Translations under genes and position numbers: made by a program
Source: Selenomonas ruminantium subsp. ruminantium ATCC 12561
Lineage (GTDB): Bacteria > Bacillota > Negativicutes > Selenomonadales > Selenomonadaceae
Assembly (NCBI RefSeq): GCF_000424065.1
Contig: NZ_AUJE01000037.1
Span: forward strand, 1 to 38,379
Reading direction: 5' to 3'
DNA length: 38,379 nt
The notes under the pieces: model-generated
What the model was told of the DNA's origin: nothing
The model's database searches: none
The model's input: only the letters and a program-made list of their open reading frames with translations
Part shown: positions 23,908-38,379 of the stretch, in pieces
How the letters are laid out: every line of letters starts with the position of its first letter
Position numbering within the stretch: position 1 is the first letter of the stretch

Positions 23908-24930
23908 CTACCGGGAAGCCCCTGTCGTCTCCCTCTCAATCAGCACATTATCCAGCATAATCCGCTTGCTCTGTCCGCCATGAATATTTTCAATCAGCAG
24001 TTTAGCGGCATTGCTGCCCAGCTGGAACATATTCTGGTCCATGGTGGTGATTTTCGGTTCCACGAGCCGGGACAGGGAGATATTATCGTACCCCATGATG
24101 GAAATATCCTGCGGTACAGATAACCCCAAACGCTTGCAAGCGTTCAGCGCACCTACGGCCATCAAATCGTTGCAGCAGCAAATCGCCGTCGGCTTTAAGC
24201 GGGGAATCAGCCCCTGCAAAGCATTCATGGCTGAATCTACCGTTTCCACACCGTTGCCTTCACCGATGTTGAGGATATAGTCTTCCCGCAGCGAGCCGTT
24301 TTCTTCCATAAACTGACGATAGGCTTCTTCCTTGATATCGTAGGAGTCGGAATTGGCCCCGCGGACGAACATAATATCCTTATGTCCCAGCCCGGACAGA
24401 TATTCCAGCGCCATCTGCGAGCCCAGCTTTTCATCATTGCCCACATAGGAAACGCCCTTGATGCGGTGATAACCGTTGATAAACACGAGCGGCACCCGTG
24501 CCACCAGTTCTTCATAAAAGCGCTCACTGATATTCTTCGTGTTGGGACTGATGACGATAATCCCCGACACATTGCGGGCTACCAAAGCATTAATGGCATT
24601 CATTTCCTGCATCGGGTCATTCTTGGCACAGTTCAGCAGGAAGGAAAACCCATCCTGACGAACAGCATCTTCGATGCCGTCAATAACTTCGGCAAAGAAC
24701 ATATTGTGCAGCCCCGGCACCACCACGCCAATCGTGGAGGATTTGCGGGTATTGAGCTCTCTGGCCTGAACATTGGGCACATAGTTAAGGCTGCTGATGG
24801 CCTCCTTAACCCGTTCCTTCGTGTCCTGTTTCACCGGATAATTACCATTCACCACCCGCGAAACCGTGGCAACCGACACCCCCGCTTTCTTCGCCACATC
24901 CACAATGGTGGCCTGTTTTTTCACGTCCAT
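23908..24930 (-). CDS. galR: LacI/GalR family transcriptional regulator
   Basis: It is probably the repressor of the galactose genes. The 340-residue protein has a LacI-type helix-turn-helix (TIVDVAKKAGVSVATVSRVV, 8-27) with a hinge helix near VPNVQARELNTRK, and a periplasmic-binding-like sensor domain (IGVVVPGLHNMFFAEVIDGIE to the end). The inducer may be galactose or an allied sugar; this is inferred from position. It is the last gene of galK-galE-galT-galR, 20 bases after galT. Five matching operators with a central CG lie at lacZ, galE, galK (two) and lacA. They also fit the CcpA cre consensus, so the pairing with this protein needs testing. The gene symbol is positional. Confidence 0.85.
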   Translation of the reverse strand: MDVKKQATIVDVAKKAGVSVATVSRVVNGNYPVKQDTKERVKEAISSLNYVPNVQARELNTRKSSTIGVVVPGLHNMFFAEVIDGIEDAVRQDGFSFLLNCAKNDPMQEMNAINALVARNVSGIIVISPNTKNISERFYEELVARVPLVFINGYHRIKGVSYVGNDEKLGSQMALEYLSGLGHKDIMFVRGANSDSYDIKEEAYRQFMEENGSLREDYILNIGEGNGVETVDSAMNALQGLIPRLKPTAICCCNDLMAVGALNACKRLGLSVPQDISIMGYDNISLSRLVEPKITTMDQNMFQLGSNAAKLLIENIHGGQSKRIMLDNVLIERETTGASR

Positions 24931-27558: not shown

Positions 27559-28743
27559 TTACTTAATTCGATGCGTACCATCGGCAATGTTGGCCACATA
27601 GAAGCTCGGTGCATAGCCAATCTTCTCCGTATAAGCCTTGCCCACTTTTTCCTTGAACGCTTCGATGGCTTCATTCTTCACGAGGCTTACCGTACAGCCG
27701 CCAAAGCCTGCGCCCGTCATACGGGAACCGATAACCCCATCAATCTGCCAGGCAAGCTCTGCCAAAGTATCGAGTTCCTTGCCCGTCACATCGTAATCAT
27801 CGCGCAGAGAGTAATGGGATTCATTCATCAGCTTGCCGAATTTAACCACATCGTCGCCTTCCAATGCTTCTACAGCTTCAAGTGTACGGTTGTTTTCGAG
27901 CACTGCATGACGCGCACGCTGACGTTCCAGCGGTTCGCTGATGGCACCGGCCAGCTGATTGAACGCTTCATTGGAAAGCTCGCCCAAAGCATTCAGTTCC
28001 GGCTTTACTTCCTTCAATTCGTTCAGCGCGTGTTCACACTGTGCACGGCGTACATTATAAGCGCTGGAGGCCAGGCTGTGCGGCTTATTGGTATTGGAAA
28101 TCACAATGCTGGCACCTTCCAAGGCAATTTTGCTGTAACGATAGGAAAGCGTATTGCAGTCCAAAAGGATTGCGCAGTCCTTCTTGCCCATACCAACGGC
28201 GAACTGGTCCATAATGCCGCAGTTTACGCCCACAAAGGTGTTTTCTGCTTTCTGAGAAAGTTTTACCATTTCTACCATATCCAGACCGAAACCGAAAGCG
28301 TCATTGAGGATAAGCGCCGTCAGCACTTCGATGGATGCCGAGGAGGAAAGGCCGGAACCATTGGGCAGCGTGCCGTAAACCAGAATATCAAAGCCATGGG
28401 AAGCCTTATGACCGGCATCTTCAAAGACTTTAACTACGCCCATGGGATAGTTGGCCCAATTCTTTTCCTTATCATAGCTGAGGCCTGACATAGCAAATTC
28501 AATGACACCCTTGTCCGCAAGGTTCATGGAGTAAATCCGCGTCTTGTTATCGGCACGGTCAGCCACCAGCGCATAAGTGCCCAGCGAAATGGCACAGGGG
28601 AACACATGGCCGCCATTGTAATCGGTGTGTTCACCAATCAGATTAACACGTCCCGGAGAAAAATAAGCCCGCGTTTCCTGCGCACCAAACTTCGCAGCGA
28701 ACTCCTCTTCCATCTTTGCCAGAATTTCATTTTCCTTTTCCAT
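27559..28743 (-). CDS. galK: Galactokinase
   Basis: GalK phosphorylates galactose at C1, the first Leloir step. The 394-residue GHMP kinase has the galactokinase signature GRVNLIGEHTDYN (31-43), the ATP loop GSGLSSSAS (129-137), the catalytic-region motif CGIMDQFAVGMGKKD (about 175-189) and GAGFGGCTVSL (about 337-347). AGGAGG lies 7 bases before the ATG. It has its own promoter flanked by two operators and leads galK-galE-galT-galR. Galactose should come from LacZ and GalA. Confidence 0.97.
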   Translation of the reverse strand: MEKENEILAKMEEEFAAKFGAQETRAYFSPGRVNLIGEHTDYNGGHVFPCAISLGTYALVADRADNKTRIYSMNLADKGVIEFAMSGLSYDKEKNWANYPMGVVKVFEDAGHKASHGFDILVYGTLPNGSGLSSSASIEVLTALILNDAFGFGLDMVEMVKLSQKAENTFVGVNCGIMDQFAVGMGKKDCAILLDCNTLSYRYSKIALEGASIVISNTNKPHSLASSAYNVRRAQCEHALNELKEVKPELNALGELSNEAFNQLAGAISEPLERQRARHAVLENNRTLEAVEALEGDDVVKFGKLMNESHYSLRDDYDVTGKELDTLAELAWQIDGVIGSRMTGAGFGGCTVSLVKNEAIEAFKEKVGKAYTEKIGYAPSFYVANIADGTHRIK

Positions 28744-28764
28744 GTCATAGCCTCCTATATTATA

Positions 28765-28778
28765 TGTAAACGTTTTCC
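28765..28778. promoter_or_regulatory. galK downstream operator
   Basis: TGTAAACGTTTTCC is a LacI/cre-type site. Its centre is about 77 bases after the predicted start of transcription and 127 bases from a second operator upstream of the promoter. A TATAAT overlaps its edge but sits against the ribosome site, so I do not read it as a promoter. Confidence 0.7.
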
Positions 28779-28790
28779 ATTTTCTTTTCT

Positions 28791-28840
28791 GAAATGCGGT
28801 GCAAGTTCATCGTTTTGCGGACCAACTCGCACCGCATTTC
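28791..28840. other. Long hairpin in the galK leader
   Basis: Arms of 17 bases (28791-28807 with 28824-28840) pair with one mismatch around a 16-base loop. It lies in the galK 5' leader. There is no T run on the minus strand, so it is unlikely to be a plain terminator of lacG. It could protect the mRNA or slow transcription. Confidence 0.6.
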
Positions 28841-28854
28841 CTTTTGTTATTTCT

Positions 28855-28905
28855 AGTTTACGCTTGTGTTAAGGGAATGTCAAGTGTTTTTTGTAAACGT
28901 TTTCT
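28855..28905 (-). promoter_or_regulatory. galK promoter and upstream operator
   Basis: A perfect TTGACA (28878-28883) and TAAACT (28855-28860) are 17 bases apart on the minus strand. The operator TGTAAACGTTTTCT (28892-28905) lies just upstream, centred about 50 bases before the start of transcription. The lacG stop is 16 bases beyond the operator. Confidence 0.8.
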
Positions 28906-28920
28906 TATTTTTTTCTATAC

Positions 28921-30351
28921 TTAATCGGCAATGTCATCTGCACCAACAATTTCGCCCCGCCGGCTCATGGCCTTATACCAATAAGCGCTTTTCTTGGGAT
29001 AACGCTTCTGTGTGGCATAATCGACATAGAATAAGCCGTAGCGCTTGCTATAGCCATTACTCCAGGACAGCACATCCATCAAGCTCCAGATATAATAACC
29101 GCCCACATGTACGCCTTCGCTAATGGCCTTCAATACAGCTTCCAAATGCCGGGTAACATATTCTATACGGGGTGTATCATCGATTTTTCCATCCACGAAA
29201 TCATCTTTATACCCCATACCATTTTCCGAAATGAAGATTTCTTTATAATTGGGATAATCACGCGCTATACGCTTCAGCTGCTTATACATCCCTTCCGGAT
29301 AAATCGGCCAATCCCAATCGGTAGTCGGAACTGCAGAGTTGCTGACCCGCGCGCCAATGCTTTTCAGGCAAAAGACGCTGGTGCCCTTTTCCCCGGTACT
29401 GTTGTTGACCACCTGGCTTTCGCCCTCATAAGCCTGCAGGAAATGGCTGGAATAATAATTCATGCCCAAAAAGTCAATCTGTGCTGCAGCCTTGGCAAAT
29501 TCCACAAAGTCCTGTTCTTCGGTAAGCAGGCTGCCACCATTCTTCTGCAGGATTTCATTGATGAAGCCCATCGTAGTTTCCGAATAGCGGCCTAAATAAC
29601 AGGCATCCAGCATGAAACGGTTGGAAATGGCATCATCCAAATCACGGGCGTGGTTGTTTTTCGGCGTATCGGTGATGGCTTCCTTGCCCTCCAACGTATG
29701 AACAATACCTATTCTTCCCGGCAAATTCATGCTCTTGTAAAGATTCAACGCCTTTGCATGGGCTACCATCAAATTATGCTCAATTTGAATAGCTTTTTCA
29801 ATCTGGAAGGTTTCATGCGGGGGAAAATTGCCTGCCAGATAGCCATTCTGGGCAATCGACCACGGCTCATTGAAGGTAGCCCATTTCATCACCCGGTCGC
29901 CAAAGGCTTCAAAACAGATTTTGGCATATGCCACGAATTTATCAATCAAATCCCGGTTCAGCCAATGCCCGTTTTGAAAAAAGGGTAACGGTGTATCAAA
30001 ATGATGAAGGGTTACAAACGGCTCTACGCCCTGCCGGATGCATTCGTCAATAAGCTTGTTATAGTAATCGATACCTGCCTGATTGACCTTTCCCTCACCA
30101 TCGGGAAGAATGCGTGTCCAGGACAGCGATATGCGAATGCCGTTTATATGAAAATCATGAGCCAATTGCAAATCCTGCTTATATTGATGATAGAAGTCAC
30201 TGGCCGGGTCAGCATTGAAGCGCGCTCCGGGACGATTCATATATTCATCCCAGACACAAGGGCCGCGCCCATCTTCACGGGTTGCGCCCTCTACCTGATA
30301 AGCTGCCGTAGCGCCGCCAAAGATAAACCCATCGGGAAATTTCTGTGCCAT
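28921..30351 (-). CDS. lacG: 6-phospho-beta-galactosidase, GH1
   Basis: LacG splits lactose-6-phosphate, delivered by the lactose PTS, into glucose and galactose-6-phosphate. The 476-residue GH1 barrel has acid/base E162 (TFNEP) and nucleophile E376 (ISENG). S429, K436 and Y438 in LSWSNGYSKRYG match the phosphate-binding Ser, Lys and Tyr of the Lactococcus enzyme, shifted by one residue. This supports a phospho-substrate over a plain beta-glucosidase. 6-phospho-beta-glucoside activity cannot be excluded. It follows lacF by 9 bases and closes the lacA-lacB-lacF-lacG operon. Confidence 0.93.
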   Translation of the reverse strand: MAQKFPDGFIFGGATAAYQVEGATREDGRGPCVWDEYMNRPGARFNADPASDFYHQYKQDLQLAHDFHINGIRISLSWTRILPDGEGKVNQAGIDYYNKLIDECIRQGVEPFVTLHHFDTPLPFFQNGHWLNRDLIDKFVAYAKICFEAFGDRVMKWATFNEPWSIAQNGYLAGNFPPHETFQIEKAIQIEHNLMVAHAKALNLYKSMNLPGRIGIVHTLEGKEAITDTPKNNHARDLDDAISNRFMLDACYLGRYSETTMGFINEILQKNGGSLLTEEQDFVEFAKAAAQIDFLGMNYYSSHFLQAYEGESQVVNNSTGEKGTSVFCLKSIGARVSNSAVPTTDWDWPIYPEGMYKQLKRIARDYPNYKEIFISENGMGYKDDFVDGKIDDTPRIEYVTRHLEAVLKAISEGVHVGGYYIWSLMDVLSWSNGYSKRYGLFYVDYATQKRYPKKSAYWYKAMSRRGEIVGADDIAD

Positions 30352-30360
30352 GTCTACACC

Positions 30361-30678
30361 TCATTTCTCCTTGAACATCTTGATAAAGCGTTTATCCATA
30401 TCCGAAAGCAGCATCGCCGTCATCAAATGATCCTGAGCATGGACAGTGAGGAAACCAATTTCGATTTCTTCCCCTGCTGCCTCCTTGGTGATGAGTTCTG
30501 TCTGCTGATTATGCGCATTAAGAATCAAGTCATCACCTTCCTTGATTAAAGCTTCTGCCTTAGCAAAATCCTTCTCACTGATTGCATCCATCGCCGCAAG
30601 GAACTTAGTCCGGGCATCGCCTGCATAAGCCACAATCTCCATTGCAATCATAGCCATTTCATCTTTCGTCATAGCCAT
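30361..30678 (-). CDS. lacF: PTS lactose-type EIIA
   Basis: EIIA passes phosphate from HPr to the EIIB domain of LacE. The 105-residue protein has the all-helical lactose/chitobiose EIIA fold. The phosphorylated His is H80 in TVHAQDHLM, with D83 as the likely metal ligand of the trimer (H78 and D81 in Lactococcus). It lies between lacB and lacG, whereas its membrane partner lacE is in a separate operon about 4 kb away. Confidence 0.95.
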   Translation of the reverse strand: MAMTKDEMAMIAMEIVAYAGDARTKFLAAMDAISEKDFAKAEALIKEGDDLILNAHNQQTELITKEAAGEEIEIGFLTVHAQDHLMTAMLLSDMDKRFIKMFKEK

Positions 30679-30718: not shown

Positions 30719-31234
30719 TCAATCATGGTAGTAACCTTCATCCCACTTTTGCAGGTACTCATCAAACAAATGGTCATTTTCGATGCAGTCATTTTCGCCA
30801 ATCAAGCCATCAATCTTGGCAATCAGAGCCTCCTTTTCCGGAGTAGGCTTGTACTCGGCTTTCAAAAAGGCTTCCAAAATATATTCAATGCTGCCGATGC
30901 CGATAACACGGCCGCCACAGCCGATAACATTGGCATTCAGGTTTTCCTTAGCGGCAACAGCAGTCTGTACATCAGCCACACAAGCAGCCCGTACGCCTTT
31001 CACCTTTTGGGCCGCATTATTGATGCCAATACCGGTACCACAGATACATACGCCTAAATCCACTTCACCTGTGGCCACCAGTTTCCCCACTTTCCGGCCA
31101 TAGATGGGATAATGCGTGCGGATAAAATCATAAGTACCCACATCGATAACTTCATGCCCCTGTTTCTTTAAGAATTCCGCCGCCTTGATTTTAATATCGG
31201 TCACAATATGGTCACAGCCAATGGCAATTTTCAT
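30719..31234 (-). CDS. lacB: Galactose-6-phosphate isomerase subunit LacB
   Basis: With LacA, LacB converts galactose-6-phosphate to tagatose-6-phosphate. The 171-residue length and the opening [18 protein letters not shown] are typical of LacB. The RpiB-like fold has [20 protein letters not shown] (about 61-80), which carries the catalytic Cys region, and [13 protein letters not shown]. It follows lacA by 27 bases. Confidence 0.96.
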
Positions 31235-31261: not shown

Positions 31262-31681
31262 TCAGCATTCACGGTTCAGCATATCGATACGAATCTGATG
31301 CCGCCCGCCATCGTATTCCGTCTTAACAAAATTCTCAGCCAGCTGGCAGGAGAGCTTTTCAGCCGTCACATTGGCCCCCAGCGTAATAATCTGCGTGCTG
31401 TTATGATGGCGCGTCATCGAAGAGGTATAATCTTCATAGGTGGGTGCACACACAATGCCATGATGCTTGGCCGCAATCATAAAGGGAGCCACACCATAAT
31501 CATCCACAATTATGCCGCGGGTAATTCCCTTCTCCTGAATGGCCGTCACCACATTTTCCGTAGCCGTAAAAATATCCTGATTCGAAAAGTCCTCTATCTC
31601 ATAGCCTTTGCTCTCCAGGTACTCCTTAATGGTGTTCTTGAGTTTTTCACCGTCCGTATTCGCAGCTAATGCAACTTTCAT
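31262..31681 (-). CDS. lacA: Galactose-6-phosphate isomerase subunit LacA
   Basis: LacA is the partner subunit of LacB. I choose the ATG at 31681 (MKVALAANTDGEKLKN), 8 bases after AAAGGAAG, which gives 139 residues. It has the RpiB-like fold, with GIIVDDYGVAPFMIAAK and HHNSTQIITLGANV. It is the first gene of lacA-lacB-lacF-lacG. Its promoter carries both a LacI-type operator and the 29-bp motif described under findings, so it may answer to two regulators. Confidence 0.95.
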   Translation of the reverse strand: MKVALAANTDGEKLKNTIKEYLESKGYEIEDFSNQDIFTATENVVTAIQEKGITRGIIVDDYGVAPFMIAAKHHGIVCAPTYEDYTSSMTRHHNSTQIITLGANVTAEKLSCQLAENFVKTEYDGGRHQIRIDMLNREC

Positions 31682-31715: not shown

Positions 31716-31791
31716 GGATAACGTTTACTATGCTTTTATTATAGCCGTCAGAGAACCTGTTTGGTTTTCATCATTTGAAAGGATTTTCGCC
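31716..31791 (-). promoter_or_regulatory. lacA promoter with two regulatory sites
   Basis: TATAAT lies at 31738-31743 on the minus strand, with no -35 match. A LacI-type operator, AGTAAACGTTATCC on the minus strand (31716-31729), follows it directly. The first copy of the 29-bp motif (31763-31791) ends 19 bases upstream of the -10 box. The same spacing recurs at the aldolase gene and lacE. Confidence 0.75.
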
Positions 31792-31816
31792 TATGGCAAA
31801 ACCGGAACAACGGCGT

Positions 31817-31822
31817 TATAAT
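31817..31822 (+). promoter_or_regulatory. -10 box of the rpiR-type gene
   Basis: A perfect TATAAT lies 34 bases before the ATG of the RpiR-family gene. A -35 match is weak (TGGCAA, 31794-31799). The 29-bp motif ends 25 bases upstream, a different distance from the three lac promoters. Confidence 0.55.
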
Positions 31823-31855
31823 AAAAGATAATGAATTTCAAGGAGTTGATGAATT

Positions 31856-32662
31856 ATGTTAATTAAAATTGACCACGATTTTCATGAACATTTGACCGAG
31901 ACCGAACAAAAAGTCATTGGCTTCATCAATATGAATGCGGAGAAAATATCCTCCATGTCCATCAGCGATGTGGCAGAGGCCACCTATTCCTCACCGGCAA
32001 CGGTCAGCCGAACCATCAAAAAATGTGGGATTTCCGGCTTTGCCGAGTTGCGCTATATCATCACCCAAAAGACCACCGTGCACAAGGACAATATCGCCGT
32101 TAATGAAATTTTCAACAAAAGTCTGACCGAAGTAACCCAGACCATCGAACAACTAAACATAGAAACCATTCTCGCCGTAGTCCGGGAAATCCGACAGGCA
32201 AAGCGCATTTATCTTCTGTCTCGTGGGCTTACCGAACACGTTGCGGATGAATTTGCCTTGAAGCTCCAGCTGCAGGGCTTTAATGTCTTTGCCAATTCCG
32301 ACCCATCCATTATGCAGGATGTAACCCGCCGCATGAAAAATCAGGAGCTGGTCATTATTTTCAGTCTGTCCGGAAAGACCCCGGAATTGCTCACTGCCGC
32401 TGAAAATGCCGCCTCCTTGGGCGCACGAATTGTAACCATTACCTGTGGGGCACCGGATACACCACTCGCCCGTATCGCCCATCTTGCCATATACGGTTTT
32501 AAACACAGCCATGTATCCATCAAAAATGTTGATGCCACCTCCCGATTGCCCATCTACGTCATCAGTCGTATCATCATCGATTATCTGACCAAGCAGCAGG
32601 AAGAAGAACGGGAAAAAGCCGCCCACAAAGAGGCGGCCTATCGCAGGGAACATTACTTTTAA
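31856..32662 (+). CDS. RpiR-family transcriptional regulator
   Basis: It probably controls the tagatose-6-phosphate pathway genes around it. The 268-residue protein has an N-terminal RpiR helix-turn-helix (about 1-75, including ISDVAEATYSSPATVSRTIKK) and a sugar-isomerase (SIS) domain (about 105-240, with RIYLLSRGLTEHVADEFALK and IIFSLSGKTPELLTAAENAA), which binds phosphosugars. A galactose- or tagatose-phosphate ligand is inferred. AGGAG stands before the ATG. It is divergent from lacA and convergent with lacC. In classical Gram-positive lac operons this role belongs to the DeoR-type LacR, which is not seen in this window. Confidence 0.92.
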   Translation: MLIKIDHDFHEHLTETEQKVIGFINMNAEKISSMSISDVAEATYSSPATVSRTIKKCGISGFAELRYIITQKTTVHKDNIAVNEIFNKSLTEVTQTIEQLNIETILAVVREIRQAKRIYLLSRGLTEHVADEFALKLQLQGFNVFANSDPSIMQDVTRRMKNQELVIIFSLSGKTPELLTAAENAASLGARIVTITCGAPDTPLARIAHLAIYGFKHSHVSIKNVDATSRLPIYVISRIIIDYLTKQQEEEREKAAHKEAAYRREHYF

Positions 32663-32690
32663 GAATACTTTGCTCACGCTATCTAATCAA

Positions 32691-33620
32691 TCAGGCAATT
32701 TTTTCTATAGCAATCCGGGGCAGCAAATCCTCAACAATCTGCTTTTGCACATATCCGCTTTCTGCCTCCAGCGCATTGGCTGTTCCACAGGCGGCACCCA
32801 GCCGCAAAATTTCTTCAACCGGCAGTTTGCGCTGAAGTCCTGCAGCAATCCCCGCAACGTAAGAGTCTCCTGACCCTACAGGGTTCTGACAGTCAATTTC
32901 CGGTACGGTAACCCGATAGATACCGCCTTCAACGCCAACCAGCGACCCCTGACTTCCCAGAGAAATTGCTGCCATTTCAATCCCTTCATCCAAAAAGTGA
33001 CGTATTTCCCGCACCACATCTGCCTCACTATGCAGACGATAACCGCGCAAAGCCTCAATCTCATCCCGGTTGGGCTTGATGAAATCCGGTTTTGCCGATA
33101 TTCCCCGCGCCAGCAAATCGCCGCTGGTGTCCAACAGGAATTTCTTCCCGGCTGCATGAGCATCCTCGATTAACTCAGCATAAAAATCTACCGGCACGCC
33201 TTGCGGCACACTGCCAGAGGCCACCACGATATCCGCTTTGTCCAGAAGTTCCGCATATTTTTTGCGGAACTTTTTTAATTCCTCCAGACTGACTTCCGGC
33301 CCCGGCTCCAAAATCTCTGTCTGCGCGCCATCCTCGGTAAGAATCGCCAAACAGGAACGGGTTTCTCCTGCCACATCCACAAAATCTCCGTTTATTCCAT
33401 AATCCTCAAGTTTTCCTGCTATCAATTCGCCGGTCTTGCCTCCCAAAAAGCCGGTTACCACCGTCTCTTCTCCTAAGATGGTATCTACGTTTGCCACATG
33501 AATGCCCTTCCCGCCCGGCGTATTATCCACGGATTTTGCCCGCACGATTTTTCCCTTGGCAAAATCGACCAGTTCATAGCGTTTATCCAATGATGCATTC
33601 AGGTTTATTACCAGTATCAT
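32691..33620 (-). CDS. lacC: Tagatose-6-phosphate kinase (PfkB family)
   Basis: LacC phosphorylates tagatose-6-phosphate to the 1,6-bisphosphate. The 309-residue PfkB protein has PGGKGIHVA (35-43) and the anion hole with catalytic base D252 in NPVGSGDSYVAG. The family cannot be told apart from 1-phosphofructokinase by motif alone, so the assignment leans on lacAB and the aldolase nearby. It follows the aldolase gene by 25 bases in the same operon. Confidence 0.92.
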   Translation of the reverse strand: MILVINLNASLDKRYELVDFAKGKIVRAKSVDNTPGGKGIHVANVDTILGEETVVTGFLGGKTGELIAGKLEDYGINGDFVDVAGETRSCLAILTEDGAQTEILEPGPEVSLEELKKFRKKYAELLDKADIVVASGSVPQGVPVDFYAELIEDAHAAGKKFLLDTSGDLLARGISAKPDFIKPNRDEIEALRGYRLHSEADVVREIRHFLDEGIEMAAISLGSQGSLVGVEGGIYRVTVPEIDCQNPVGSGDSYVAGIAAGLQRKLPVEEILRLGAACGTANALEAESGYVQKQIVEDLLPRIAIEKIA

Positions 33621-33645
33621 ATCCTTTACCCTTCCTCAGTTTTTC

Positions 33646-34521
<876 letters not shown>

Positions 34522-34542
34522 TCAGCTTAAAACCTTGATTTC

Positions 34543-34596
34543 ATTATAAGAAAATGCCCTCGCCCTTTGTTTTCACCTTTTGGAAAGGTTTTCACA
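34543..34596 (-). promoter_or_regulatory. gatY promoter with 29-bp motif
   Basis: TATAAT lies at 34543-34548 on the minus strand, with no -35 match. The second copy of the motif (34568-34596) ends 19 bases upstream of it. Confidence 0.75.
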
Positions 34597-34608
34597 TTTT
34601 TGGGGTAT

Positions 34609-34661
34609 AAAAATACTCCTGCTGCCACTGTTACCGTATCAGTTGGCAGCAGGAGTTTATT
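34609..34661 (-). terminator. Terminator of lacE
   Basis: A perfect 13-bp stem (34615-34627 with 34644-34656) is followed by ATTTTTA on the minus strand, 16 bases past the lacE stop. Confidence 0.88.
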
Positions 34662-34671
34662 CCTACTTAAA

Positions 34672-36339
34672 TTAATGTGCCATCAACGCGAGGGCAAAAT
34701 CCAGAGCCTTTTCCGGGTCACGGGTAAGCCCTACATATTCCCGGCCGCTGGTCGTTGCACTCTTGACCCCTTTGGCTTCGCAGTCCGTCTTCAGCTCATC
34801 ATACATAGATGCCATCTGCGGTGCTAACACGACAAGGTCAAAATCCGTGATAATATCTTTATGCTGACCGTAAGCCATAGCAATGGATTCCACCGGAGCA
34901 TGACGCTCTTCCGCGCCTTTAGTGATTGCCTTGGCCAGCATGGAACTGGTTGCACCGGATGCGCAGAGTACCAGTACCCGCTTTTCTTCCTGTGGCAGCT
35001 CAGCTGCAGCTACGGCCGGAGCGCCGACATTTTCCACTGCTTCTGTAACCGTCTCCTCCTCTGTCTCAATACCGGCTTTTTCCTTCTCCACCAGCTGGGC
35101 ATCATAAACCCGGAAGAACGGATAATAAAGCACGGCATCTACCAGGAGGAGCAAGGGAGCCAGTACAAAGGCTAATTTAGCAAAGCCCGTACCGATGATG
35201 AGACCGATGGGGGCCGGAGTTGTCCAGGGCAGAATATAGGTAAAGGAGTTCATGCCCAGTGTATCAACAAAAAACTTGAAAATCCATACATTGAAAATCG
35301 GTGCCAGGATAAAGGGGAAGAACAGTACCGGATTCAAAACGATGGGCGCACCAAACAGAATCGGTTCGTTCACGGCAAAGGTAACCGGAATAATGGAAGC
35401 CCGTCCAACAGCTCTAAGCTGTTTGGATTTGGCGATAAACGCACACATCGCACAGAACATCAGCGTTGCGCCCGTGCCGCCAATGGTTGCGACAAAATAC
35501 GAGGTCGGATGCGTAAGGATATTCACTGCGTGACCGCCGTTGCTTACGATTTGCAGATTCGCTTCGATATTGGCAATATAAATTGCCGTTACTGCCGGTT
35601 CTACGATAGACGGGCCATGAATACCCATGAACCAGAACATCGCCATAGCTCCATAGATGATGGCAACACCGATATAACCATCTGCTGCCACAAAGAGCGG
35701 CTTGAACACTTCCAGTACCCAGGCACCAAACATCATGCCCGTAGTTTCCTTAAAGACGATACCAAAAATCCAGTAAACCAGTACGGCTACCGACAAGGGG
35801 ATAAGGTCAGCAAAAGTCTGTGCAATATAATGGGGAACTTCATCGGGCAGCTTGATGGTGATATTGCGCTTTACGAAGAATTTGTAAATGTTTGGCACCG
35901 TAAACGCTACCACAAAAGCGGATAAGAGCCCCTTCGTTCCCATGAACTCCGTGGAAATGCCCCCCTCCACAGGAGCTACCGCCAACAAGAGCAAGCAGAT
36001 AATGGATACGATCATGACCGAGACATCATTAATCTGCCGGAGTTTCGGCATCTTCGTATTAATGCTGTCCGTCAGGCTTTTGGCAATGGTTGCCACCATG
36101 AGAATGCCCAGCATACCCATGCTGTAGTTATAAGCCTGCCAAAGCACGCTGCTGATGGATTCCGGCCACTTGTAGTCGAAGATCTCCGGCACACAGGCCA
36201 CCAGAATGAATAAGGACGAAAACAGGATTACCGGTATGCAGCTTACAAAGCCATCCCGGATAGCCCGCAGGTAGATGTTGTTGGAAACCTTTTCAAACAT
36301 CGGTTTCAAGGTCTCTACCATCTTGATCAGTTTTTCCAT
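34672..36339 (-). CDS. lacE: PTS lactose-type EIICB
   Basis: LacE imports lactose or a related disaccharide and phosphorylates it on the way in. I choose the ATG at 36339 (MEKLIKMVETLKPMF), 6 bases after AAAGGGA, giving 555 residues. Residues 1 to about 420 are the membrane EIIC domain of the lactose/cellobiose class, with about ten hydrophobic segments and the sugar-pocket region MFWFMGIHGPSIVEP. A Glu-rich linker leads to the EIIB domain (about 454-555) with the phosphorylated C459 in VLVLCASGATSSMLAKA. It is a one-gene operon with its own motif-bearing promoter and terminator. Cellobiose is an alternative substrate. Confidence 0.94.
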   Translation of the reverse strand: MEKLIKMVETLKPMFEKVSNNIYLRAIRDGFVSCIPVILFSSLFILVACVPEIFDYKWPESISSVLWQAYNYSMGMLGILMVATIAKSLTDSINTKMPKLRQINDVSVMIVSIICLLLLAVAPVEGGISTEFMGTKGLLSAFVVAFTVPNIYKFFVKRNITIKLPDEVPHYIAQTFADLIPLSVAVLVYWIFGIVFKETTGMMFGAWVLEVFKPLFVAADGYIGVAIIYGAMAMFWFMGIHGPSIVEPAVTAIYIANIEANLQIVSNGGHAVNILTHPTSYFVATIGGTGATLMFCAMCAFIAKSKQLRAVGRASIIPVTFAVNEPILFGAPIVLNPVLFFPFILAPIFNVWIFKFFVDTLGMNSFTYILPWTTPAPIGLIIGTGFAKLAFVLAPLLLLVDAVLYYPFFRVYDAQLVEKEKAGIETEEETVTEAVENVGAPAVAAAELPQEEKRVLVLCASGATSSMLAKAITKGAEERHAPVESIAMAYGQHKDIITDFDLVVLAPQMASMYDELKTDCEAKGVKSATTSGREYVGLTRDPEKALDFALALMAH

Positions 36340-36404
36340 GATGATTCCCTTTCTTTCTTTGAACTTCGAGAGCTCATCAACCAGCTCTCCCCTGCTATGG
36401 TTAC

Positions 36405-36458
36405 AGTATAAGGCAAAATTGTTTCCGCGTGTTTTCACGTTTTGAAAATTTTTTCAAC
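36405..36458 (-). promoter_or_regulatory. lacE promoter with 29-bp motif
   Basis: TATACT lies at 36405-36410 on the minus strand, with no -35 match. The third motif copy (36430-36458) ends 19 bases upstream. A 7-bp hairpin (36368-36374 with 36383-36389) lies in the leader. Confidence 0.75.
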
Positions 36459-36565: not shown

Positions 36566-36589
36566 TTTCTCGTATTTTATAGAAAACCG

Positions 36590-36850
36590 TTGAAGCGGAA
36601 AAAACAGCCGTTATGCTCTCCCAGAGAGTCCGGGATGCTGAAAACCGGATAGAACACAGACTGCTGCATGGGCCGCTGAGGGCGCACCGAACATTACCAT
36701 TAGGCATATCAGTAGGCTGCGACGTAAGACATACGTCAGTTGTCAGAGGTATGTTCGTACCTCGTTAAGGGCATGGCACAGCCATGAAACAGGGTGGCAC
36801 CGCGAGAATTTCGTCCCTGACAGAAACTATTTTCTGTCGGGGACTTTTTG
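36590..36850 (+). ncRNA. T-box leader of trpS
   Basis: The leader has the highly conserved AGGGTGGCACCGCG (36791-36804), which binds the uncharged tRNA acceptor end. It is followed by a terminator with a 14-bp stem (36813-36826 with 36831-36844) and five T's. Stem I begins near AGAGAGTCCGGGATGCTGAA. TGG at 36669-36671, within GCATGGGCC, is the likely tryptophan specifier codon. Low charging of tRNA-Trp would allow read-through into trpS. Confidence 0.93.
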
Positions 36851-36881: not shown

Positions 36882-37883
36882 ATGGAAAACAAAAAAATCA
36901 TTCTCTCGGGCATTCAGCCCACAGGCACCTTTACCCTGGGCAACTATCTGGGCGCGGTGAAGAACTGGCAGAAAATGCAGGAGGACTACAACTGCTACTA
37001 CTTTATCGCCGACCTGCACTCCCTGACGATTCACATCGACCCGTCCCAGCGTAAAAAGCAGACCCTCGAAGCCTTTGCCCTGCTGCTGGCCTGCGGCATT
37101 GACCCGCAAAAGAGCCTGGTTTTCGTCCAGAGCCATGTCCGCAGCCATGCGGAAATGGGCTGGCTCATGAGCTGCTGCGCCCAGTTCGGTGAACTCAGCC
37201 GCATGACCCAGTTCAAGGATAAATCCAGCAAACATCCGGAAAACATCAACGCCGGTCTCTTTACCTATCCGGCACTGATGGCCGGCGACATCCTGCTGTA
37301 TCAGGCCGACTATGTCCCCGTAGGCGCTGACCAGACCCAGCATTTGGAATTCACCCGTGATATTGCCACCCGCATCAACCATAACTACGGCGAAATCTTC
37401 AAGCTGCCGGAAGGCTACTTCCCAAAAGCCGGTGCCCGCGTCATGAGCCTGCAGGACCCCACCAGCAAGATGAGCAAGTCCGACACCAATCCCAAAGCCA
37501 CGATTTCCATTCTCGATGAAGAAAATGTCATTCTCAAGAAATTCAAGAGCGCTGTCACCGACAGCGAAGCCAAGGTATGCTTCCGCGAGGACAAGCCTGG
37601 CGTCAGCAACCTCATGACCATCTATTCGGCCATCACCGGAAAAACCATGGAGGAAATCGAAGCCGAATTCGACGGCAAGGGCTATGGCGACTTCAAGACC
37701 GTTGTCGGCCAGACCGTAGCCGATGAATTAAAGCCCATCCGCGAAAAATACAAGGAACTTATGGCCGATAGAAAAGCCCTCGAAGTCCTCATGAAGGAAG
37801 GCGCCGACAAAGCCGAGTACATCGCCCGCAAGACCCTCTCCAAAACGAAGAAAAAATTAGGCCTGCTGCCGGAAATCCGCTAA
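36882..37883 (+). CDS. trpS: Tryptophanyl-tRNA synthetase
   Basis: TrpS charges tRNA-Trp. The 333-residue class I synthetase has PTGTFTLGN (13-21, the HIGH-like signature) and KMSKS (196-200), with the TrpRS-specific GDILLYQADYVPVGADQTQH (about 133-152). AAAGGAG stands 9 bases before the ATG. The T-box leader makes it responsive to tryptophan supply. It is a single-gene unit. A hairpin overlapping its stop codon (about 37863-37901) lacks a T run, so its terminator is unclear. I see nothing else I can assign in 37902-38007. Confidence 0.97.
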   Translation: MENKKIILSGIQPTGTFTLGNYLGAVKNWQKMQEDYNCYYFIADLHSLTIHIDPSQRKKQTLEAFALLLACGIDPQKSLVFVQSHVRSHAEMGWLMSCCAQFGELSRMTQFKDKSSKHPENINAGLFTYPALMAGDILLYQADYVPVGADQTQHLEFTRDIATRINHNYGEIFKLPEGYFPKAGARVMSLQDPTSKMSKSDTNPKATISILDEENVILKKFKSAVTDSEAKVCFREDKPGVSNLMTIYSAITGKTMEEIEAEFDGKGYGDFKTVVGQTVADELKPIREKYKELMADRKALEVLMKEGADKAEYIARKTLSKTKKKLGLLPEIR

Positions 37884-38007: not shown

Positions 38008-38200
38008 CACGTTGAACCTCCCCCACTTATAGAAGTGGGGAATTCTTGAGAAGTTTGATACACGGACTAACGCCCGACAGACATATCCCAAAGGAGTTAG
38101 CTGTCAGGATACCCTTATTCTCAATGGGCTGTCCAAAAGCCCTCTACACAGTTCTTCGAAATCGAAGTTCTGCTTACTTTTGCGAAGTATGTTTGCCGCC
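38008..38200 (-). ncRNA. Putative omega RNA and right end of an IS605-type element
   Basis: TnpB-associated guide RNAs cover the 3' end of tnpB and the right end of the element. On the minus strand the tnpB stop is followed by an H-type pseudoknot: GACAG (38105-38101) with CTGTC (38080-38076), and CTAAC (38100-38096) with GTTAG (38071-38067). Next comes a perfect 8-bp hairpin (38033-38040 with 38021-38028) typical of IS200/IS605 right ends. The element probably ends near GGTTCAAC (about 38011). The following bases would be the guide. The 5' limit is a guess. Confidence 0.55.
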
Positions 38201-38379
38201 CCGTTGACATCGGCATTTGCAGTTCTGCCATCGGCAAACCGATACAGTCCACGCTGGACACGCTTGCCACTGAATATACCAGTATACGGATTTTCGGCAT
38301 TGTAGACAGGAATATCGTCCAGGTCAAGGCAGCTTGCCTTTGAAGTATAGGATTCTTCCTGCTCTATGTACTTAATCCC
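38104..38379 (-). CDS. tnpB: TnpB (IS200/IS605 family), C-terminal part
   Basis: The frame is open to the window edge and encodes the last 91 residues of a TnpB RNA-guided nuclease. It has EQEESYTSKASCLDLDDIP, then FSGKRVQRGLYRFADGRTAN, and NADVNGAANILRKSKQN, where the Asp of ADVNGA is the third RuvC catalytic acid. The four-Cys zinc finger of many TnpB proteins is replaced by the ESYTSKAS type. The N-terminus lies outside the window. No tnpA is visible. Confidence 0.92.
   Translation of the reverse strand, partial: GIKYIEQEESYTSKASCLDLDDIPVYNAENPYTGIFSGKRVQRGLYRFADGRTANADVNGAANILRKSKQNFDFEELCRGLLDSPLRIRVS

Follow-up and report, generated by a model that had tools for sequence, protein, structure and literature searches.

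The 38,379-nucleotide contig NZ_AUJE01000037.1 of Selenomonas ruminantium subsp. ruminantium ATCC 12561, analysed at its full length and referred to below as the window, carries lactose/tagatose-6-phosphate genes in three minus-strand operons (lacABFG, gatY-lacC and lacE), together with a divergent plus-strand gene for an RpiR-family regulator. We describe here a 29-bp motif found upstream of each operon, and the protein that may act through it. An initial annotation of this DNA had placed copies of the motif at three positions, and three 29-mers were indeed found there (Table 1). Using Pfam, the regulator was matched by HTH_6 at residues 10-71 (47.7 bits; cut-off 28.3) and by SIS at residues 111-227 (68.3 bits; cut-off 25), a combination of N-terminal HTH_6 and C-terminal SIS domains that makes it a member of the MurR/RpiR family.

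The family consensus of the motif, in coding-strand orientation, is TGAAAA-N2-TTTTCA-N5-TGAAAAC, followed by 20 bases and then TATAAT. Since the plus-strand TTTTC block forms the outer arm of a palindrome, the motif resolves into three alternating half-sites, visible in a logo of 71 distinct sequences as TGAAA (0-4), TTTCA (9-13) and TGAAA (19-23). The logo as a whole reads T-GAAAA-NN-T-TTTCAAA-N3-TGAAAAC-A, then about 19 free bases, TATAAT, an A-rich stretch and CA at the expected start. With the -10 hexamer set as -12 to -7, the whole site covers about -58 to -33. Within it, the distal pair TGAAAA-N2-TTTTCA is a palindrome with its centre near -51.5. The proximal pair TTTCA-N5-TGAAA is an inverted repeat centred at -42, close to the textbook site centre of -41.5 for class II activators, and the third half-site, TGAAAAC, spans -39 to -33 and extends into the position normally taken by a -35 box. 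Copy 1 is the least regular of the window copies, with two mismatches in the 12 positions of its distal palindrome, which a one-mismatch palindrome scan did not list.

At the three window promoters, each 29-mer ends 19 bases before a -10 box, as first annotated, which is the same as 20 bases counted from the conserved ...GAAAAC. The lack of a -35 box also proved correct: with spacers of 15-19, the best match to TTGACA was 2/6 at lacA, 3/6 at gatY and 3/6 at lacE, and none of the three promoters was listed by a consensus promoter scan. The transcription starts given for lacA, gatY and lacE are predicted from the conserved CA downstream of the -10 hexamer.

The 25-base core of the motif, GTTTTCANNNTTTGRAANNNTTTTC, has three exact matches in the 3,386,012-base genome (G000), all of them within the window. 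A relaxed scan of the genome with this core added one match at two mismatches and four at three, and a reversed control pattern gave two matches when up to three mismatches were allowed. No exact core match arose when the window was shuffled 200 times with its dinucleotide composition preserved. When the full 52-letter consensus was scanned at up to three mismatches, it returned two window copies and no additional site in the genome, copy 1 being missed because it deviates at four positions. The genome-wide scatter that the initial annotation had named as counting against a regulon was therefore not seen, and the genome, family and phylum scans, together with the shuffles, led us to reject a chance occurrence.

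Across the family, the core was scanned at up to one mismatch in 189 genomes, yielding 92 matches in 38 genomes versus 5 for the reversed control. We read 87 of these matches on retrieved stretches or on the window, and the other five, in genus g11, at their own loci. The stretches read hold 88 sites (52 with no mismatch, 35 with one and 1 with two), and at 86 of them, drawn from six genera, at least five of the six bases of TATAAT lie at exactly 20 bases (N20), with all six present at 66. After removal of duplicates, the 86 sites leave 71 distinct sequences of 60 bases, many of which come from closely related genomes. As the 71 sequences were preselected for a -10 box at N20, the box was also allowed to float over offsets 10-33, whereupon N20 was the sole best position in 64 and shared the top place in 5; in the remaining 2, both with TATACT at N20, it ranked second. 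Sequence and spacing are thus conserved within the family, the check that had been asked of relatives. The class-II-like geometry proposed from the window likewise holds up by computation: the sites overlap the -35 region, their distance to the -10 box is fixed at N20 (86/88 sites), and a -35 box is missing from the window promoters. Across the phylum, a strict pattern of core, N20 and TATAMT with no mismatch was found in one of 398 genomes, the window's own, although a pattern this strict would overlook less regular sites, among them the ones described below for Lucifera and Pelosinus.

Site and regulator gene occur together. With a close RpiR orthologue defined as one scoring more than 320 bits (58-100% identity), an N20 site is present in 27/27 family genomes that have such an orthologue versus 4/162 that do not (Fisher p ~8e-29, computed ignoring the relatedness of the genomes). 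In the window's genus (22 genomes), 15 have both the site and RpiR, 5 have neither and 2 have the site only. The helix-turn-helix stretch SSPATVSRTIKKCGISGFAELRY is invariant across nine aligned orthologues, and three aligned paralogues have SSPSTVSRAIRKCGINGFNELR at this stretch, with nearly the same recognition region. Compared by eye, positions 0-13 of the logo, TGAAA-N4-TTTCA, also resemble the published RpiR-family sequences TCTGAAACTACTTTCAAA and GAAAAATATTTTC. These data make it extremely unlikely that the sites belong to a LacR of the DeoR type known from staphylococci and streptococci, or to another unlinked regulator. The genome does contain eight HTH_DeoR matches, and in one relative (G161) a site occurs in the absence of an RpiR orthologue. 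Nevertheless, the presence of sites follows that of the RpiR gene, and the half-sites look like published RpiR-family sequences; moreover, none of the eight matches lies on the window's contig (C33, 38,379 bases), so that a DeoR-type LacR encoded there was rejected.

The same galactose cluster also encodes a LacI-family protein (23908-24930), and this protein, or one like CcpA, might own the sites if the left palindrome were a cre-like operator. LacI and CcpA (cre) operators have a central CG. Such a centre is present in 6/71 sites, and LacI co-occurs with the sites above chance (28/73 genomes with LacI). However, the other 65/71 sites lack the central CG, and boxes of the CG type are located elsewhere, two at galK and one past the lacA start. 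In addition, LacI is found in 22/22 members of the genus, 5 of which lack sites, and a search at E 1e-90 did not detect it in three genomes (G007, G012 and G018) that all have sites and RpiR. On the strength of this distribution, the missing central CG and the placing of the LacI boxes, we rejected LacI/CcpA ownership, which we regard as very improbable.

We consider it likely, from the sequence comparisons above, that the RpiR protein encoded beside copy 1 has the three sites as its operators and would be a phosphosugar-responsive activator that uses three half-sites in class II style. Under this model, lactose or a galactoside would be imported by the lactose phosphotransferase system (PTS) as the 6-phosphate, and one of the pathway's phosphosugars (galactose-6-P, tagatose-6-P or tagatose-1,6-bisphosphate) would be bound by the SIS domain, a domain that by itself predicts such a signal. 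An RpiR dimer would occupy the distal palindrome, and another DNA-binding domain, from the same tetramer or from a second dimer, would hold the third half-site. RNA polymerase would then be recruited to, or positioned at, promoters whose -10 box is consensus-like and which lack a -35 box, inducing the lactose/tagatose-6-phosphate pathway as one unit. The lack of a -35 box, with a half-site in its place, points to activation via polymerase contact, and the constancy of N20 favours it too, since contact with polymerase requires fixed phasing and simple repression does not. The initial annotation had inferred that this RpiR protein, and not a DeoR-type LacR, activates the pathway; RpiR does emerge as the likely regulator, while activation stays at the level of a prediction.

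Alternatively, the same RpiR protein could be a repressor that covers the -35 region and is released by phosphosugar, like MurR or AlsR. Several RpiR-family proteins repress (PMC6528599, in the parts covered), the site extends over the position of a -35 box, and at paralogue loci the palindrome lies at another distance from a -10-like hexamer. We nonetheless think repression unlikely, because a repressor would find no -35 box to block at the window promoters, which would thus be expected to be weak unaided, and because a roadblock has no need of a -10 distance that stays constant over six genera.

A number of observations weigh against the RpiR activator model. Co-occurrence with a gene of the same locus is no proof of ownership, as the lac genes co-vary too, and four genomes with an N20 site lack an RpiR orthologue. 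One of these genomes (G163) is 82% complete, in a second (G183) the contig stops inside lacC, which adjoins rpiR in relatives, and a third (G170) has merely a 55-residue RpiR match. The fourth (G161) is 99% complete and has a single site, upstream of galK, which we read as a putative deletion scar. Two core sites (G171 and G181), left out of the logo, have no -10 box at N20, and neither do the five core matches in genus g11 (G058, G062, G070, G076 and G094), which are taken as chance. A further one-mismatch palindrome lies at 36282-36295, within the lacE coding sequence. Finally, the minor-groove residue Arg67 that is essential in the RpiR-family protein NanR of Streptococcus pneumoniae (PMC12713135, in the passages covered) aligns with Ala63 here, the PDB chain used having been taken as NanR from its residue numbering. 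A change in the TA centre of the NanR site abolished binding (PMC12713135, same passages), whereas the two central bases of the palindrome are variable here; this variable centre would fit the lack of an Arg67 counterpart.

Further points on both sides come from loci with more distant RpiR proteins. In named genomes, an RpiR relative was found at 33 loci, 24 of them on contigs already read; 12 were scanned (L152-L163), 9 of which were new. One (L152) has two N20 sites, upstream of galK and of lacF-lacG. At the eight loci outside the family (L156-L163; RpiR relative at 47-59% identity), the geometry is kept in two. In Lucifera butyrica (RpiR 56%), an imperfect site (4/26 mismatches) with TATAAT at N20 lies upstream of a kinase gene and gatY, with no lacAB, and a second site, upstream of rpiR, is not followed by a -10 box at N20. 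In Pelosinus propionicus (RpiR 59%), TGAAAACTGTTCCA and TGGAAAC, with half-sites spaced one base wider, are followed by TATAAT at N20 upstream of lacA, a site overlooked by the scripted scan and read by eye. The scripted scan found no N20 site at a Eubacteriaceae locus or at five Clostridium loci. Among RpiR paralogues (43-47% identity) that adjoin other gatY-kinase genes, 10 of 12 loci were retrieved (L118-L127), and all ten contain the palindrome [CT]GAAAA-N2-TTTTCA, on the operon strand as [CT]GAAAAGATTTTCA in nine. A -10-like hexamer (at least 5/6) follows it at 13, not 20, bases in six of these nine, possibly reflecting a different mode of control by an RpiR-family protein. Several of the paralogue loci also have a further TTTTC-like half-site upstream of the palindrome. 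As the palindrome recurs at another spacing, the half-sites appear to track the RpiR protein clade, with the N20 geometry mainly a trait of close orthologues.

Turning to the reach of the regulon, N20 sites in family relatives also lie upstream of a second GH1 gene, of galK clusters and of secreted GH53 endo-galactanases. One of the second GH1 genes was assigned using Pfam and NCBIfam and the rest by 37-47% identity to lacG; for the GH53 genes, one that stands first in line was tested and the rest were assigned by sequence likeness. In the genus including Anaerovibrio slackiae, an N20 site lies upstream of an SLH-domain porin-like gene, which is followed by a GH53 gene. These targets suggest that plant galactan and galacto-oligosaccharides are natural substrates alongside lactose. 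The three operons had been described as exactly the PTS/tagatose-6-phosphate genes; in relatives, the sites also precede genes outside the pathway. The existence of one regulon is supported by computation. We see about equal grounds for and against a wider scheme, a distinct RpiR-family mode of activation in which an RpiR tetramer would hold the palindrome and a third half-site replacing the -35 element, giving polymerase its upstream contact through the protein itself, and in which this architecture would have spread over a Negativicutes galactan-to-tagatose regulon (galactanase, porin-like protein, PTS, phospho-beta-galactosidase, LacAB, LacC and GatY), replacing a DeoR-type LacR.

The loci of relatives held two other features. 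At three of them (L069, L087 and L092), the first gene between the motif and galK encodes a small protein (171-174 aa) whose start resembles a signal peptide; two of the three proteins were searched against Pfam, with no match. In addition, the porin-like gene of the Anaerovibrio group has 21-bp inverted repeats (95%) on either side in G007, G018 and G012, and in G012 the segment with the gene is inverted relative to G007 and G018, the blastn alignments breaking at the repeats. This arrangement suggests a phase-variable outer-membrane gene, invertible and placed downstream of a promoter under RpiR control, the alternative being an assembly artefact.

Table 1 Features of the window and, in the last three rows, segments at loci of relatives.
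Feature	Position	Strand	Remarks
Motif copy 1	31763..31791	-	three half-sites; upstream of lacABFG
Motif copy 2	34568..34596	-	upstream of gatY-lacC
Motif copy 3	36430..36458	-	upstream of lactose EIICB gene (lacE)
lacA promoter, -10 box TATAAT	31738..31743	-	N20 after ...TGAAAAC; predicted start A at 31731
gatY promoter, -10 box TATAAT	34543..34548	-	hexamer read; predicted start A at 34536
lacE promoter, -10 box TATACT	36405..36410	-	hexamer read; predicted start A at 36398
RpiR-family regulator gene (HTH_6 + SIS, 268 aa)	31856..32662	+	divergent from lacA; sites proposed as its operators
lacA, galactose-6-phosphate isomerase subunit	31262..31681	-	best family match, under cut-off
lacB, galactose-6-phosphate isomerase subunit	30719..31234	-	over curated NCBIfam cut-off
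lacF, lactose/cellobiose-type PTS EIIA	30361..30678	-	best family, under strictest cut-off
lacG, GH1 6-phospho-beta-galactosidase	28921..30351	-	over curated NCBIfam cut-off
gatY, tagatose-bisphosphate-type class II aldolase	33646..34500	-	over curated NCBIfam cut-off
lacC-like PfkB hexose kinase	32691..33620	-	general hexose-kinase model best; tagatose-6-phosphate kinase under cut-off
lacE, lactose-type PTS EIICB	34672..36339	-	best family, under strictest cut-off
LacI/GalR-type operator-like box GATAACGTTTAC	31717..31728	+	just past predicted lacA start; resembles two galK boxes
Repeat-flanked porin-like segment, L107	3585-5193
Repeat-flanked porin-like segment, L080	1606-3366
Repeat-flanked porin-like segment, L082	2235-4035

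The lacE start (ATG at 36339) was chosen from the onset of the EIIC match, the mechanical open reading frame beginning at 36438. Leftward of the lac genes lie galK, galE and galT, putative names assigned from sequence, as well as the LacI-family gene and genes for GH2 and GH36 glycosidases. The galK promoter (28735-28930, minus strand) reads TTGACA-17-TAAACT and is accompanied by two GAAAACGTTTAC boxes (28893-28904 and 28766-28777), probably operators of the LacI-family protein. As the similar box GATAACGTTTAC lies just past the lacA start, lacABFG may be under a second control by this protein. Elsewhere in the window, a T-box leader at 36581-36821 on the plus strand (Rfam RF00230, 94.2 bits; gathering score 93) precedes a tryptophanyl/tyrosyl-type tRNA synthetase gene (36882-37883), and an edge fragment at 38104-38379 on the minus strand, with a weak match, under cut-off, to a Cas12f1-like TNB domain, is perhaps a transposon-encoded TnpB-type protein.

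The analysis makes the firm prediction that lactose/galactoside use in rumen Selenomonas and its relatives is regulated by an RpiR protein. In the open-licence literature, which leaves most subscription journals outside, we found no report of RpiR control of the tagatose-6-phosphate pathway, of an RpiR regulon in Selenomonas or Negativicutes, or of a three-half-site array locked to a -10 box. The left half of the motif and RpiR-family activators (GlaR and NanR) are already published; what would be new is the predicted RpiR control of the tagatose-6-phosphate pathway and the locking of the array to the -10 box. With dozens of promoters sharing one fixed geometry, the question of how an RpiR protein acts on polymerase becomes addressable by a few spacing and half-site mutants.

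The lac operons of Gram-positive cocci are under a DeoR-type repressor (LacR), use the aldolase LacD and encode the enzymes lacA, lacB, lacC, lacE, lacF and lacG. The same pathway enzymes are found here, with RpiR in place of LacR, a GatY-type aldolase in place of LacD, and three promoters. RpiR-family control of carbohydrate genes has precedents elsewhere, with five RpiR carbohydrate regulons reported in lactic acid bacteria (PMC3616900, in the parts covered). One of these is GlaR (YugA) of Lactococcus lactis, an RpiR-family activator of the gal-lac operon whose gene adjoins that operon, and whose target promoter, that of lacS, has a full -10 and no -35 consensus (PMC6528599). This likeness is drawn from the description and not from sequence, and GlaR controls Leloir genes and a permease rather than PTS/tagatose-6-phosphate genes; the parts of the paper covered report one bound promoter among those tested and contain no binding motif.

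The initial annotation had known of no described motif of this form, a statement that did not survive comparison with published RpiR-family sequences (PMC4509764 and PMC12713135, both covered in part). In Clostridium perfringens, the nan promoters share an element, GAAAAATATTTTC, that fits GAAAA-N3-TTTTC and so corresponds to our left palindrome, and the RpiR-family NanR of this species bound the nanI and nanE promoters, with binding to GAAAAATATTTTC itself left open (PMC4509764). That system serves sialidase genes and, as far as the passages of PMC4509764 go, the three-half-site array and the fixed -10 distance are found only here. The pneumococcal NanR is an RpiR-family activator that binds a sugar 6-phosphate and the site TCTGAAACTACTTTCAAA, and a ligand-stabilised tetramer was proposed to use an extra half-site near polymerase, in a preprint that called the molecular basis of RpiR activation unknown before that work (PMC12713135). 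It thus shares with our proposed system the protein family, a near-palindrome of the form TGAAA-N4-TTTCA and an extra half-site (PMC12713135). NanR, however, controls sialic acid genes, and its extra half-site is degenerate and lies about 23 bases off (PMC12713135, in the passages covered), whereas the third half-site here is near-invariant, 5 bases off and N20 before the -10 box.

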